Of a stretch of 30,793 nucleotides of DNA, positions 2,826 through 30,793 are shown piece by piece; the first letter of the stretch is position 1; each line of letters begins with the position of its first letter. A program made the translations under genes and the position numbers. The notes beneath the pieces are model-generated. The model ran no database searches. It saw only the letters and a list, made by a program, of their open reading frames with translations, and had not been told where the DNA came from. Location of the stretch: the IMG/VR virus record IMGVR_UViG_3300042564_002251, positions 1-30,793 of that record, one strand, 5' to 3'. The stretch is from a virus.

Positions 2826-5105
2826 TCATTTTTCAACTTCTATTTCTTTAATCCATCTGAAAATAGTCCGTTTGCTGACCTCTAATAATTCACTTGCAAC
2901 TGTTCTATTAAAATCTTTATCTAAGTCGTACATAGCTTTAAATTTATCAAATGGAGTATCTGCACCCTTACTAACTTTTTTCAAATCGTTAACCTCTTTA
3001 GTATCAATTTTAATTCTCTTAGCATTAGAAATAAAATAATTACTTATCTTTTCCGCTTTTAAAATTGATTCTACTGAAACCTCTAAGTAGTGTTTATTTC
3101 CACTCACAATACTATCAAATGTATTTATCAATAATGCAAATCTTGGAATATAACTTTTTTGTTTTGGGTACATACTTTTTAAATACTCATTTTCTTCATC
3201 ATTATTTTGATAAGATGTTATTGTATTAAAAATTCTAATCCATTCTTTTTTAGCATCAGTAGAAAATTTAACTCGTACTGGCACAATATCCCCATCATCA
3301 TTTCGAGTTGTATTTTGTTGAAAGAAATCGTAAAACTTTTTTATCATTTCACTATACCATAAAATAGTTTGATAGTCTAATTCTTTCTCATTATACTCTT
3401 CTACTGTTGCAATTGGAAAAGATAAAAGCATTCTATCCATGAATCCGTTTTCCTTGTTTTCTTCAGTTGATAAGTTGTTTAAAATAGCTGGTTGAATACC
3501 ACCTAAAACACTTATAAAAGGTTTTTCAACAAATGTACTACTTACCGAACGTCTATTCATTGAAACACTTTTACCACTCCAACAACTTAGCCAAAATTCT
3601 AAGTCAGAACCTGCACGATATTTATTCATATCTTTTAACCAACCTGCTAACTCATCTTTAAAAACCCCTATTGCGTTATCACTTTCTTGGTGCAATTCAA
3701 CCAATGCTTCTAAAGTAATATCGTTTGCAATAAATTGTGTTTTCTTTGGCTTGTTTACTTCGGGATATTCCTCTTTTTCCTTTTTTGTTAATCCTGAGTA
3801 GTAATTAAACTCTTCCATTTTTTGAATAAACTTCTTGATTTCTTTTGAGTTTAATTTCATTAATGGAAAAATAATATTGTTGATACTTGGAGTTTTACCT
3901 ATACCAGCTTTTCCTACTACTGCAATCCATAACACCCCGTTTTCATTCCAACCTCTTTTAACTTCAATCTCAAAACAATTCCCAATACAAACAGAAATTA
4001 ACCAAAGTAATGAAACACCCATGTAATCAATATTTGAATCTAATTTATCTGCACACTCTTTTATGTAGAATTGCATTTCACTTGGAAACACATCAATAGG
4101 AAAATCAACATTTGAAACCTCTATTTTTTTAGGTATGGTTGGTTTTATTTCGTCTATTTTCTTTTTTAACCTACTCCCAAAGCCTTGCTCATATAAAGAC
4201 TTAGTAGCTTCTTTAAAATCCCCACTATGGTATTTGTGAGCATAAGCAACAAACGGACTAATTAACTTTTCAGCTGGGTATGTTGTACCCGTTGAAAATA
4301 AATACATACATCCACTATCCTTAAAAACATACCCACTATGTGCAGCAGTACTACCATGTCTTTTTATTAAATAATGTTTGTTTTTTTGTCCACTTGGTGG
4401 AATAAAAAAGTCATCACAAATAACATCCCAAATATCTGTTTGATTATTAAAATCATCCCATGGAGTTATTTCGTTTTCTGCATAGATTTTAGGCTCTTTC
4501 TTTGGTGCTTCGGGTGTTTCTTCAATATGATTATAAGACTTACTTATGTGCCATAAAATATCCCTATCTTCATCACTAATAAACTGAATCTCAAAATAGG
4601 ATAAATCACAATATCTATTCTCAGGATATAGGAAAATATAACCAAATGCTCCACGTGTTTCAATGATAGCTTCTTTATGACCTTTTAACTTTGCTATCTT
4701 TGTATTTCCTTGAATTCTTTTAGATTTATAAATGATATGAAAACCGCCTGACTTAGTTTGATATACTGCAAATTTCTTTTTAAAATCTACTATGTTATCC
4801 TGCAAAGTTTGAAAGTACTCATTCCAAAACTCATCCTTTTCATGTTGTGTGCTGAACACCTTTGTATCAACATCTATACATTCAAGGAAATCATATCCCG
4901 TAACTATTCCAATTCCTTTTGTTGGAGGTATTTCTTCACCATCTGTTTTTTTTATACCACCATTGTATCGTAAATTCTTTAAAAATTGATCCTGAGAAAG
5001 TTTTTCGTTTTGTTGTTCCTTCCACGGAAAATTAGGTACTTTGTCTTTTCCAATCGTAATAACTGAAAAATATTCATAAAACTTTAATGCTTTGTTTTCT
5101 TCCAT
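2826..5105 (-). CDS. PrimPol-DUF3987 primase-helicase fusion (replication protein)
   Basis: At 759 aa this is the main replication protein. The N-terminus looks like a primase-polymerase: D78-x-D80 (ECIDVDTK), the SGGFHIIYKSK strand with H123, and a following IETRGAFGYIF segment. A linker (about 205-330) holds a small PrimPol-associated region. The C-terminal half is a DUF3987-type P-loop helicase: Walker A GKAGIGKT (398-405), Walker B VFKDELAG (481-488) and an arginine-bearing FMDRMLL (555-561). The last 35 residues form a helix-turn-helix (TVASELLEVSKRTIFRWIKE), a plausible origin-binding module. No DNA polymerase gene was seen, so the host enzyme probably extends its primers. It sits about 560 bp from the repeat cluster at 5664-5910. 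Confidence 0.9.
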   Translation of the reverse strand: MEENKALKFYEYFSVITIGKDKVPNFPWKEQQNEKLSQDQFLKNLRYNGGIKKTDGEEIPPTKGIGIVTGYDFLECIDVDTKVFSTQHEKDEFWNEYFQTLQDNIVDFKKKFAVYQTKSGGFHIIYKSKRIQGNTKIAKLKGHKEAIIETRGAFGYIFLYPENRYCDLSYFEIQFISDEDRDILWHISKSYNHIEETPEAPKKEPKIYAENEITPWDDFNNQTDIWDVICDDFFIPPSGQKNKHYLIKRHGSTAAHSGYVFKDSGCMYLFSTGTTYPAEKLISPFVAYAHKYHSGDFKEATKSLYEQGFGSRLKKKIDEIKPTIPKKIEVSNVDFPIDVFPSEMQFYIKECADKLDSNIDYMGVSLLWLISVCIGNCFEIEVKRGWNENGVLWIAVVGKAGIGKTPSINNIIFPLMKLNSKEIKKFIQKMEEFNYYSGLTKKEKEEYPEVNKPKKTQFIANDITLEALVELHQESDNAIGVFKDELAGWLKDMNKYRAGSDLEFWLSCWSGKSVSMNRRSVSSTFVEKPFISVLGGIQPAILNNLSTEENKENGFMDRMLLSFPIATVEEYNEKELDYQTILWYSEMIKKFYDFFQQNTTRNDDGDIVPVRVKFSTDAKKEWIRIFNTITSYQNNDEENEYLKSMYPKQKSYIPRFALLINTFDSIVSGNKHYLEVSVESILKAEKISNYFISNAKRIKIDTKEVNDLKKVSKGADTPFDKFKAMYDLDKDFNRTVASELLEVSKRTIFRWIKEIEVEK

Positions 5106-5108
5106 GGT

Positions 5109-5510
5109 TTAAAATTTTAGGCTCATTCGTTTAATTGAAACATCATACGGGTTTGGAATTTCAATAAACCCTAACTTATACCAAAACTTTTCAGTTTCTT
5201 TAATTGGTTCAATTTGAATTTCATTAATACCATTTTCAATACAATTTTGTTTTATCTCTAAGAACTTTTTTAATCCTCTTCCTTGACCTCGTTTTTTTGG
5301 TGTAAAATACAAGTCAGAAATGTAAAGATATGGTAAACTTTTACAATGAAATGGAGTAATTGATATTATTGAAATTGAATCAATATTACAAATTAAATCC
5401 GTGTCTGCAAATTTTTGAATGATTTGTTTTTCAATTAATCCTTTTTTCCTAAAACTAATTAATTCTTCCATTTGATTGCAGTACTTTGCGTAATTAAATT
5501 CTTTATACAT
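5109..5510 (-). CDS. GNAT-family N-acetyltransferase
   Basis: The acetyl-CoA pyrophosphate-binding motif is visible as KKRGQGRGLKKFLE (about residues 71-85; R/QxxGxG), after the strand YISDLYFTP, and the final GNAT strand-helix pair is KFWYKLGFIEI. At 133 aa it is a single-domain enzyme. It is the first gene after the structured leader and is separated from the primase-helicase by 3 bases. The substrate is unknown; in a phage it could acetylate a host protein, a toxin or a small molecule. Confidence 0.85.
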   Translation of the reverse strand: MYKEFNYAKYCNQMEELISFRKKGLIEKQIIQKFADTDLICNIDSISIISITPFHCKSLPYLYISDLYFTPKKRGQGRGLKKFLEIKQNCIENGINEIQIEPIKETEKFWYKLGFIEIPNPYDVSIKRMSLKF

Positions 5511-5609
5511 AATTTTATAAAATGCGAAAAGCCTATCTAAAAAGGTGCGTAGGATGACCTTTTTTCGATAAGCTTTTCAATTAAAATTTCTTGAAGTTCC
5601 TACGCTTCT
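5511..5609 (-). promoter_or_regulatory. Structured 5' leader RNA with loop-to-5'-end complementarity
   Basis: The transcript from the 5616-5623 promoter should start near 5609. A long hairpin forms from 5567-5578 with 5526-5537 (12 bp, one G-U) and from 5557-5564 with 5539-5546 (8 bp). Its 10-base loop contains 5547-5554 (GCGTAGGA, plus strand), complementary to 5598-5605 (TCCTACGC) near the 5' end. This allows a pseudoknot or kissing interaction. The upper stem ends ACCTTTTT, like an intrinsic terminator, so the leader could attenuate the primase operon. Confidence 0.65.
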
Positions 5610-5615
5610 GTTTTG

Positions 5616-5623
5616 CAAATATA
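5616..5623 (-). promoter_or_regulatory. Strong Bacteroidota-type promoter (TATATTTG) for the replication operon
   Basis: On the minus strand TATATTTG is preceded by TTG with an 18-base spacer, a good fit to the Bacteroidota sigma-factor consensus (TTG, about 19 bases, TAnnTTTG). It drives the GNAT and primase-helicase genes through a structured leader. Confidence 0.75.
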
Positions 5624-5663
5624 CAAATAATTTTGAATATACAACAAAATAATTAAATATTTT

Positions 5664-5910
5664 TATAGTGACAAAGAGTGACACGTGTCACACCAATGTC
5701 ACACCAAATGTCACACCTATTTCTTAGTGTTTATAAGGGTTACAGAGCAAGAGTGACACGTGTCACCTTTAAAAAAAAATAAGTAAAAAAATAAATTTAA
5801 TTTTTAATTTAATTAGGGGTGACACAAAATGTCACACTATGACTATAATACTGATTATTAGCTGTTTATATTAATTTATAGTGACACGTGTCACACCATG
5901 TCACACTAAA
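5664..5910. other. Probable replication origin: GTGACAC palindromes and half-sites around an A/T block
   Basis: The 14-bp palindrome GTGACACGTGTCAC occurs three times (5678-5691, 5753-5766, 5881-5894). A spaced version, GTGACA-5 bases-TGTCAC, lies at 5819-5835. Extra half-sites are at 5668-5673, 5697-5705, 5709-5717 and 5899-5906. Bases 5768-5815 are almost pure A/T. Iterons beside an A/T unwinding block next to a primase-helicase gene are the hallmark of an iteron-type origin. A repressor-operator cluster controlling the nearby promoter is the main alternative. Confidence 0.72.
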
Positions 5911-5913
5911 AAC

Positions 5914-28944: not shown

Positions 28945-29192
28945 GCAACAAAGCTACAAAAAAAAGCTGAATAAATATCAAAAGTAATTATTAATGTCAA
29001 CCAAAGTGATAAACACTTCCAGCAAGATAGTATGTTGAATAAGAAATGAATGCGATATTTTGAAAAGAACTTAATAAATAAACCCTGCAATGGCTCAAAG
29101 TGTACAATAAACCAAGATAGCAGGAACGCAAAAAGGGAGTCGTTAAACTCCCCTAATGATAACCGATTTAAAAAAATGCAAAACACGTGCAA
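28914..29192 (-). CDS. Membrane protein, DUF1360-like (start uncertain, up to 92 aa)
   Basis: Two or three hydrophobic segments and a C-x-x-C element (ILSCWKCLSLWLTLIITF) match a small membrane protein common in phages, including the FAFLLSWFIVHFEPLQ entry segment. There is no ATG in frame: TTG at 29192 lies inside the promoter, and GTG at 29186 is the next candidate, so the mRNA may be leaderless. A terminator-like hairpin (29134-29151) lies inside the frame. Length and start are uncertain; role unknown. Confidence 0.6.
   Translation of the reverse strand: MHVFCIFLNRLSLGEFNDSLFAFLLSWFIVHFEPLQGLFIKFFSKYRIHFLFNILSCWKCLSLWLTLIITFDIYSAFFCSFVAWLLSKLIEK
29129..29151 (-). terminator. Terminator-like hairpin inside the membrane protein frame
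   Basis: On the minus strand GGGAGT, a six-base loop and ACTCCC are followed by TTTTT, about 50 bases after the promoter at 29190. It overlaps the reading frame, so it may act as an attenuator of the packaging operon. Confidence 0.55.
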
Positions 29193-29197
29193 ATATA
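29190..29197 (-). promoter_or_regulatory. TATATTTG promoter for the packaging operon
   Basis: Minus-strand TATATTTG with a TAG (one mismatch to TTG) 19 bases upstream. Downstream lie the membrane protein, sigma-like protein and terminase genes, ending at the 26551-26580 hairpin. Confidence 0.6.
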
Positions 29198-29481: not shown

Positions 29482-29805
29482 TTACCATGGTAAATCGTTA
29501 CTTGATTGTGTAGGTTGTGGAGTACTAACATTCAATCGGTCAATTTTCCACGCAGACAAAGTGTTGAAATACTTTACTTCGCCTTGTGGTGATGTCCAAC
29601 TCCTCCCTTCAATATTGATTGAAACCGCTAACTCATCACCTAAGTTAATGCCATCTAAAAGACTGCATTTATCTTGTTTCAATTGCAACTCTATTGTTTG
29701 AGGGTAGGTGTCGGAAGTTTCAACGACAAAATGTCTTTTACTGAACTTCTCACTTACTACAATCGTTTCACCTTTAACGATTAATTTTCCTTTAATTTCA
29801 CTCAT
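29482..29805 (-). CDS. DUF3127-like single-strand-binding-type protein
   Basis: An OB-fold-like protein of 107 aa: KGKLIVKGETIVVSEKFSKR, then FVVETSDTYPQTIELQLKQD and LLDGINLGDELAVSINIEGR with TLSAWKIDRL match DUF3127 proteins of Bacteroidota. The C-terminus ends SSNDLPW, similar to the acidic DDLPF tip of SSB used to recruit repair proteins. It likely binds single-strand DNA during replication or recombination. It lies directly after the 32-aa peptide gene, in the accessory unit rather than with ERF. Confidence 0.85.
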   Translation of the reverse strand: MSEIKGKLIVKGETIVVSEKFSKRHFVVETSDTYPQTIELQLKQDKCSLLDGINLGDELAVSINIEGRSWTSPQGEVKYFNTLSAWKIDRLNVSTPQPTQSSNDLPW

Positions 29806-29806
29806 C

Positions 29807-29905
29807 TTAATCTTTTTTAAAATATTCTCTAATTATAACTGCTACTGTAAAATATAGGATTACCACAATTGGTAACCCTATTAAAATAAAAATTGTTGCT
29901 TTCAT
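29807..29905 (-). CDS. 32-aa single-pass membrane peptide
   Basis: One hydrophobic helix (ATIFILIGLPIVVILYFTVA) is followed by a charged end (IREYFKKD). The ATG overlaps the lipoprotein stop as ATGA (29902-29905) and the stop lies just before the DUF3127 gene. The coupling to an outer-membrane-type lipoprotein is notable. It may be a partner of the lipoprotein or a small membrane toxin; no family is recognised. Confidence 0.65.
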   Translation of the reverse strand: MKATIFILIGLPIVVILYFTVAVIIREYFKKD

Positions 29906-30303
29906 TTTCTTTCAATTATGGGTAATCCTGCTTCAGTTGGAATATAAACTGTTTTTCCATGGTTGTACATTCCATCAACCATAATATATTTAATGTAATC
30001 AGGATTGTTTTGAATAGCATCTGAAACAATCTTTATTGCTTTAGATTTAGCAAGTGCTTCAATTTGCTTAGCCTTTGAATCAGCTTCTGCTCTAACTTGC
30101 TTTGTTTGTGCTTCTAATTTTGCACTTTCGTAGTTAGCTTTTGCCTCTTCAATCCTTGCTTGTTTCTCGTATCTCGCTTTCATCAAAATACCTTTACCAT
30201 CATTTTCACGGTCTAGTCTTTCTTGCTGACGATTAAAGTCATAACAACTTGTTAAACTTCCAATTGCTAAAATCAAAGCAACCATTTTAAATTTCTTTTC
30301 CAT
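29902..30303 (-). CDS. Lipoprotein with coiled coil and band-7-like C-terminus (133 aa)
   Basis: A lipoprotein signal peptide (MEKKFKMVALILAIGSLTSC; lipobox L17-T-S-C20) is followed by a charged helical coiled coil (about 28-95) and an end that resembles the tail of SPFH/band-7 proteins (AIQNNPDYIKYIMVDGMYN, then YIPTEAGLPIIE). It is the first gene behind the strong 30388 promoter. Superinfection exclusion is a plausible role for an early phage lipoprotein. A lysis (spanin-like) role is less likely, because it lies far from the lysis genes. Confidence 0.7.
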   Translation of the reverse strand: MEKKFKMVALILAIGSLTSCYDFNRQQERLDRENDGKGILMKARYEKQARIEEAKANYESAKLEAQTKQVRAEADSKAKQIEALAKSKAIKIVSDAIQNNPDYIKYIMVDGMYNHGKTVYIPTEAGLPIIERK

Positions 30304-30382
30304 TCTCTTATAAATTAAAAATCCCCAAACTCGACCTGCAAACGAATAAGGGGATTTATTAAACTCTTAAATCTTGCAGGAT
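30304..30382 (-). promoter_or_regulatory. Structured 5' leader RNA, interleaved stems
   Basis: In the transcript from the 30388 promoter, AAATCCCC (30350-30357 in complement) pairs with GGGGATTT (30319-30326) and is followed by T-rich sequence, a terminator-like stem. Its loop contains TTGCAGG (30335-30341), complementary to CCTGCAA (30374-30380) at the very 5' end. The pairs are interleaved, as in a pseudoknot or attenuator switch. The ATG of the lipoprotein follows within 20 bases. Confidence 0.65.
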
Positions 30383-30387
30383 TTTTG

Positions 30388-30395
30388 CAAATATA
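30388..30395 (-). promoter_or_regulatory. Strong TATATTTG promoter for the lipoprotein unit
   Basis: Minus-strand TATATTTG with TTG 19 bases upstream, the best Bacteroidota-type promoter in the genome. It directly precedes the structured leader. Confidence 0.78.
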
Positions 30396-30661: not shown

Positions 30662-30699
30662 GTTATGGTGCATTAAAACGTCGCTACGCTCACCATAAC
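30662..30699. repeat. 9-bp inverted repeat across the circular join
   Basis: GTTATGGTG (30662-30670) pairs with CACCATAAC (30691-30699, same bases as 17-25). The loop (AAAACGTCGCTACGCT) is richer in G and C than the background. It lies between the 60-aa gene and the 74-aa gene. No T-run follows, so a terminator role is doubtful. Confidence 0.55.
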
Positions 30700-30793
30700 A
30701 CACGATAAGCAAAATAATTAAGGCTTAGATTATCCGTTAAATTCAATTTTTGGGAAATCTTTAACATCAATTCTCTCACTTCTACATCTTTTT
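30675..30793. repeat. Second copy of the 119-bp overlap (same as 1-119)
   Basis: Identical to bases 1-119; it should be removed when the genome is closed to 30,674 bp. Confidence 0.95.

Follow-up and report, generated by a model that had tools for sequence, protein, structure and literature searches.

Predicted kissing-hairpin leader RNAs head DNA-replication operons in tailed phages of Bacteroidota

Introduction

The guanidine-II (mini-ykkC) riboswitch places two hairpins with kissing loops in a 5'-UTR, and its loops are short and fixed in sequence. In the ColE1 RNA I/RNA II system, a loop-loop helix of ~7 bp takes its specificity from complementarity, the pairing being intermolecular and located at the replication origin; Rom recognizes such kissing loops by shape and independently of their sequence. 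The leader of T4 gene 32, a pseudoknotted 5' leader before phage SSB/replication genes, forms a compact H-type pseudoknot that lies well ahead of the start codon, and gp32 autoregulates via this pseudoknot in its own leader. Terminator attenuators (trp, pT181 repC and the P4/P1 c4 type) are built as a promoter, a leader, a GC-rich hairpin with a U-tract, and the gene. The ligand reported for the guanidine-II riboswitch is guanidinium (PMC9300104). The putL and putR RNAs of HK022 are phage-only leaders of ~70 nt that fold into two hairpins and head early transcripts; the paper on their structure mentions no kissing loops or pseudoknot (PMC9378689).

Here, we describe a leader RNA in a window of 30,793 nt, the whole of the IMG/VR virus record IMGVR_UViG_3300042564_002251. 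The window is the genome of a Bacteroidota-type siphovirus and carries a 119-bp exact direct terminal repeat (1-119 = 30675-30793), which makes it likely that the contig is a whole genome, either terminally redundant or circularly mapping. The leader precedes a lipoprotein-like gene and a DUF3127 single-strand DNA-binding protein (SSB) gene, and comparison with other phages identifies it as a predicted member of a class of 5' leader RNAs carried by tailed phages of Bacteroidota, of which many are virulent.

Results

The SSB/lipoprotein leader is ~70 nt long and is read from the minus strand as the promoter TATATTTG followed by CAAAAATCCTGCAAGATTTAAGAGTTTAATAAATCCCCTTATTCGTTTGCAGGTCGAGTTTGGGGATTTTTAATTTATAAGAGA-ATG (Table 1); the leader geometry is constant relative to the promoter -7 box. 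A first-pass annotation had proposed two interleaved pairings in this leader, the second followed by Ts. Both pairings are exact and the U-run is present. The same annotation had placed the first segment at the 5' end with its partner in the loop of the last hairpin. The partner does lie in that loop, but the first segment is not a free tail: S1a sits in the loop of a 5' hairpin, P1, and the leader consists of two hairpins with complementary (kissing) loops. The S1a/S1b helix has 6 bp if it is strictly loop-loop and 7-8 bp if the closing pair of P1 is opened. P3 (AUUCG-UUUGCAGGU-CGAGU) is carried by P2 (AAAUCCCC/GGGGAUUU) with a UU/UU internal loop between them. The terminator-like hairpin has a computed energy of -16.4 kcal/mol, and the ATG of gene 1, at 30303, lies 15 nt past P2.

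Table 1. Features of the two leaders and their operons in the window (all on the minus strand)
Feature	Position	Strand	Sequence or product	Basis
Promoter of SSB/lipoprotein unit	30388-30395	-	TATATTTG; Bacteroidota-type -7 box, TTG ~19 nt upstream	sequence and pattern scan
P1, 5' hairpin	stem 30380-30384 / 30369-30373	-	AAAUC-CUGCAA-GAUUU; loop holds 5' kissing strand	sequence
S1a, 5' strand of loop-loop helix	30374-30380	-	CCUGCAA	exact complement of 30335-30341
P2 5' arm, terminator-like hairpin	30350-30357	-	AAAUCCCC	exact complement of 30319-30326
P3 5' arm, inner stem	30343-30347	-	AUUCG	pairs with 30329-30333
S1b, 3' strand of loop-loop helix, within P3 loop	30335-30341	-	UUGCAGG	sequence
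P3 3' arm	30329-30333	-	CGAGU	folding
P2 3' arm	30319-30326	-	GGGGAUUU	sequence
U-tract, directly 3' of GC-rich part of P2	30317-30321	-		sequence; U enrichment in relatives
Gene 1	29902-30303	-	small lipoprotein-like protein	ORF; PHROG 11227 / 200
Gene 2	29482-29805	-	DUF3127 single-strand DNA-binding protein	PF11325 E 4.8e-25; phrog_4932 E 8.2e-32
Promoter of primase operon	5616-5623	-	TATATTTG	sequence and pattern scan
Second kissing-hairpin leader	5526-5608	-		fold, shuffles, covariance model
Primase leader P1	GAAG/CUUC 5605-5608/5593-5596	-	GAAG-CGUAGGAA-CUUC	
Primase leader S1	5598-5605 with 5547-5554	-		
Primase leader P2	5567-5578 with 5526-5537	-	GAAAAGCUUAUC/GAUAGGCUUUUC	
Primase leader P3	5557-5563 with 5540-5546	-	AAAAGGU-CAUCCUACGC-ACCUUUU	
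Genes behind primase leader	2826-5510	-	GNAT-like protein, then Prim-Pol/DUF3987 primase-helicase	

The region 5616-5511 (-) at the head of the primase operon has the same arrangement in unrelated letters, with a terminator-like hairpin of -21.5 kcal/mol (computed) and a weak U-tract (UUUUCGCAUUUU); there is no cross-complementarity between the two leaders. A search for orthologues of the GNAT-like protein found no relatives. Directly upstream of the primase-operon promoter, a repeated, iteron-like palindrome (GTGACACGTGTCAC, 5660-5912) marks a candidate replication origin, and ACACACGG/CCGTGTGT repeats occupy the equivalent place in L009. A further TATATTTG promoter (29143-29197, minus strand) is followed after ~35 nt by a GGGAGU/ACUCCC hairpin and U5; it lacks a kissing partner and resembles a promoter-proximal terminator or a small RNA.

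The fold was scored in both leaders against dinucleotide shuffles. P1 and P3, the enclosing stems absent from the first-pass annotation, were added to the full-fold score, which 0 of 4000 shuffles reached for either leader. With the tail-in-loop descriptor alone the values were p ~0.01-0.02 for the SSB/lipoprotein leader and ~0.005-0.01 for the primase leader. Plain minimum free energy (MFE) folding of the SSB/lipoprotein leader gave z of only -1.7, because it cannot represent a loop-loop helix. A covariance model (R2, the second that we built) trained on leaders of other phages, with no window sequences, ranked the primase leader first in the window (E 1.3e-4) and the SSB/lipoprotein leader second (E 0.15, weak alone). 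The shared topology with unrelated sequence, as first annotated, stood up in both window leaders.

The annotation had named the leader after the lipoprotein unit, a label that turned out to be incidental. In the IMG/VR contig L006 (5538-5650) a near-identical leader lies directly before a DUF3127 SSB gene, the adjoining gene having changed; the homologues in L001-L005 lack such a leader, and the best structure before the lipoprotein gene of phage PJN03 is within the shuffle range. The lipoprotein gene was therefore rejected as the defining neighbor.

Sequence comparison across phages supports the fold in 41 sequence-distinct clusters, which hold 38 different S1 sequences. The stems P1 and P3 were not used to detect these clusters, and both are strongly enriched: P1 stems around S1a gave z -9.2 and P3 stems around S1b z -8.3, with 0/500 shuffled flanks as strong in each case. 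When only clusters not fetched by a U-run were counted, the U fraction in the 8 nt after P2 was 0.64 vs 0.30 in other leaders at equal ATG distance (p 6e-11), and in a family not selected for a U-tract, U reached 0.66-0.97 over the 9 positions right after P2, followed by A-rich sequence. The tract is weak in the L314 type (GGGCAUUAACUUUUU), as it is in the window primase leader.

Loop complementarity was examined blind in leaders fetched by promoter and P1 stem alone (TATATTTGCA-N0-8-GTAGAG-N6-CTAC). A perfect complement of the P1 loop, 7-8 nt long, was found 33-52 nt downstream in 56 of the 58 distinct leaders; the two failures have one unrelated sequence in common, and swapping loops between leaders yielded 7-mers in 0.1%. 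Leaders with compensated loop differences are up to 98% identical outside the loops. In the alignment of this GUAG-type family, pairing in the kissing helix is 100% and 5/7 of its pairs show two-sided changes; the pairing percentage is partly built in by the 7-nt complement required of members (56/58 is the unbiased figure). P3 is 98.8% paired (two-sided changes at 3/3) and P2 87.5% (4/5). The overall covariation score was 0.519 vs 0.151 for shuffled alignments (0/500) and no more than 0.10 for slid ones. A family covariance model built without the kissing pairs matched further leaders beyond its training set, and all sense-strand matches outside that set with E < 0.005 have a 7-8 nt loop-loop match. 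Antisense matches at the same places lack the loop complement, and an antisense reading was rejected. Diversifying selection on the loops was not supported either: the same loop can be found in leaders that are unrelated (GUCGUCG in 17/58 blind-test leaders, from many different phages), while P2 varies more. On the sequence evidence, the kissing-hairpin structure is almost certainly real.

Two further features recur among the leaders. In leaders that are otherwise unrelated, the linker between P1 and P2 (alignment A2) has a loose common composition, AAAAAUAUUAUNAAA, which is possibly a protein or pause signal. The internal loop between P2 and P3 is often AGUA/GAA, like the sarcin-ricin/loop E motif, or tandem G-A (UGAU/UGAU); these forms were seen in leaders L300, L406, L271, L514, L282 and L286, and L365, L351 and L411, which suggests recurrent 3D motifs.

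How widely the fold occurs was estimated from three samples of strong Bacteroidota-type promoters, TTTG-N18-20-TATATTTGCAAA or ...CATT, picked regardless of leader. The descriptor search against shuffles envisaged in the first-pass annotation found the fold (E <= -26) in 7/126 leaders of phage contigs vs 0.64 expected, and in 4/55 leaders of a second phage sample vs 0.03 expected; cellular promoters from GTDB genomes gave 0/114 vs 0.68 expected. The class thus makes up ~6% of the strong phage promoter leaders sampled. A sample selected for a U-run before the ATG gave 21/55 vs 0.17 expected. Searching with one BT4734/VapE-type primase returned 43 phage loci, and the fold was present in 41/41 primase-family leaders inspected. 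These comprise at least four types without shared sequence, with S1 of ACCGCCAA/ACCCGCCA, GUUGCGG, GUUGCGC and AGGGACG, before proteins that are 65-100% identical. The first genes after leaders encode BT4734/VapE/PriCT primases, ResIII/DEAD helicases, DUF3127 SSB, DUF6291, DUF3987, a DnaD-like loader and NUMOD4/HNH endonucleases; primase, helicase, SSB, replication initiators and HNH endonucleases are the recurring neighbors. No leader passed the scan in phages P12024S, phi46:1, 1/32 and PJN03. A pattern search for P1 of the GUAG subtype, the one subtype covered, found the leader in 0/399 genomes of one Bacteroidota host family; five pattern matches there lack the loop complement and look like chance.

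Among cultured phages, the kissing-hairpin architecture is carried by the virulent Flavobacterium phages mumin, filifjonk and morran. The mumin primase leader is matched by 46 database records (including RefSeq duplicates) from phages of Flavobacterium sp. LMO6/LMO9, an isolate set described as 38 virulent phages (PMC7077304). Three compensated natural alleles of the loops occur: GUGGAACG/CGUUCCAC in mumin, GUGAGACG/CGUCUCAC in filifjonk and GUGAGAAG/CUUCUCAC in morran. Both mumin9-1 and tooticki6-1 carry a pair of leaders, one ahead of an HNH+SSB unit and one ahead of the primase operon, and the window parallels them with one leader for its SSB-containing operon and one for the primase operon. 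A block of promoter, kissing leader and NUMOD4-HNH gene that is present in mumin/tooticki (L296, NC_048837, 11630-12244) is absent from filifjonk9-1 (L535, NC_048831, 13408-13419), where the flanking genes are contiguous; leader and promoter therefore appear to be mobile together, and the leader is not bound to any one gene. In morran9-1 (L602, MN812219.1, 14157-14300), the leader is spanned by an annotated small hypothetical CDS, gp042, which is unlikely to be a genuine gene.

The whole window gave no match to Rfam 15 at the gathering threshold, and at relaxed thresholds the SSB/lipoprotein leader had no sub-threshold match near a gathering score. A literature search of incomplete coverage found no description of a kissing-hairpin leader class.

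Discussion

The first-pass annotation had suggested a functional RNA class defined by fold and not by sequence, placed behind strong promoters. The distinct clusters, the blind loop test, covariation and cross-detection bear this out, and at the level of sequence they establish the fold, its recurrence, its place between promoter and gene, the U-tract, the association with replication and HNH genes, and its absence from our sample of cellular promoters. We take this to be a previously unrecognized leader RNA, probably acting in cis, whose fold forms a separate class. Its nearest known relatives are the HK022 putRNA in form and place, guanidine-II in having two kissing hairpins, and the terminator attenuators. 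It lacks the defining features of the guanidine-II family: the loops are 8-10 nt, freely variable (38 S1 sequences in the 41 clusters) and covarying, and Rfam gives no match. It also lacks those of classical attenuators, having kissing loops in place of an overlapping alternative antiterminator and no leader peptide that we noted. The interleaved pairing recalls T4 gene 32, but here it takes the form of a loop-loop helix accompanied by a terminator-like hairpin and a U-tract; in contrast to ColE1 RNA I/RNA II, both loops lie in one leader.

What would such a leader do? The reading that we favor, with roughly even confidence, is that the class controls transcription elongation into replication operons in an attenuator-like manner. 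The transcript would start a few nucleotides before the weak 5' hairpin P1, after which an A/U-rich linker of ~15-30 nt would lead to the stronger hairpin made of P2, the internal loop and P3; together with the U-tract, the latter resembles an intrinsic terminator, the start codon usually following 8-20 nt further on. The P1 and P3 loops, complementary over 6-8 bp, would form an intramolecular kissing complex. We infer a cis effect of the leader on RNA polymerase: S1b, once emerged, could pair with the P1 loop before the 3' arm of P2 is finished, and the kissing state could set the speed or efficiency with which the terminator-like hairpin closes, and thereby fix the level or the timing of read-through into the replication operon. 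Computed energies are -0.4 to -1.7 kcal/mol for P1 alone and -6 to -10 for the loop-loop duplex; with P1 marginal by itself and the loop-loop helix strong, kissing should govern P1 and bias the closing of P3/P2. Loops differ in all phages seen with two leaders, including the window and mumin, which fits action in cis. As in an intrinsic terminator, a stable hairpin and a U-tract lie between promoter and first gene, the tract being weak in the window primase leader, and its position at the hairpin base argues for an effect on transcription elongation. Several observations count against the attenuator-like reading. The kissing strands and P2 do not overlap in the leaders examined, including both in the window, and so form no classical, mutually exclusive antiterminator; the U-tract is weak in some members, such as the window primase leader and the L314 type; the covariance-model score of the SSB/lipoprotein leader is weak when taken alone; and the U-tract also coincides with the expected place of a ribosome-binding aid. 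Our confidence in this reading and in its rivals overlaps somewhat.

The last of these observations leads to the first rival, which we consider possible though rather unlikely, namely that the folded UTR shields the 5' end of the mRNA and offers a U-rich, then A-rich landing site for the ribosome. Comparable protective leaders are those of ompA and T7 gene 10. P1 begins within a few nucleotides of the expected 5' end, the fold fills the UTR to ~8-20 nt before the ATG in most members, a U-run lies 8-12 nt before the ATG ahead of A-rich sequence, and a fold kept without its sequence would fit a purely mechanical role. A single stable hairpin would, however, suffice to guard a 5' end, without the 7-bp kissing interaction that covariation shows to be conserved; the U-tract starts at the base of the hairpin, in terminator fashion, and cellular genes behind the same promoter lack the fold.

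More doubtful is a scheme in which virulent Bacteroidota phages would begin every replication operon with a kissing-hairpin terminator. A factor encoded by phage or host, reading the loop-loop shape and not the sequence, would release all of these terminators together and so time replication; leader and promoter would be passed on as one cassette, with homing endonucleases as well.

We regard as improbable an antiterminator acting in cis like the HK022 putRNAs, a two-hairpin RNA that would bind the elongating polymerase so that downstream terminators are ignored. The leaders do resemble putRNAs in having two stem-loops in ~70 nt at the head of an early transcript, with putL just downstream of an early promoter (PMC9378689), and they head multi-gene operons. 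But put RNAs share sequence and make specific contacts with the polymerase via defined bases (PMC9378689), whereas sequence is not conserved between the leaders, and none of the known put elements has a U-tract at its end immediately ahead of a start codon.

Slightly less probable again is an operator bound by protein, in which a phage replication protein (e.g., the DUF3127 SSB) or a Rom-like protein would read the kissing shape or the A/U-rich linker and autoregulate the operon. The leaders precede SSB, primase and helicase operons and their linker has the loose common composition described above, but they also head HNH-endonuclease units without SSB. A superinfection-immunity RNA of the P4 CI / P1 c4 kind, a terminated leader that would target, in trans, the corresponding leader of a phage entering the cell, is very improbable: a primase-operon leader, a terminator-like hairpin, loop complementarity and loops that diverge between close relatives would suit it, but such RNAs belong to temperate phages or satellites and a prophage state, the carriers here include phages isolated as virulent (PMC7077304), the GUAG type is missing from the 399 host-family genomes, and the recurrence of one loop in different phages with a more variable P2 is the opposite of diversifying loops.

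The function of these leaders is directly testable, because they occur in virulent phages in culture whose laboratory hosts are known (Flavobacterium sp. LMO6/LMO9), with three compensated alleles among them. Searches for structured RNA start from sequence similarity, so that a class whose conservation lies almost entirely in its topology would escape them. This one heads DNA-replication operons in phages that infect a major bacterial phylum, and gene regulation in the phages of that phylum has been little studied.
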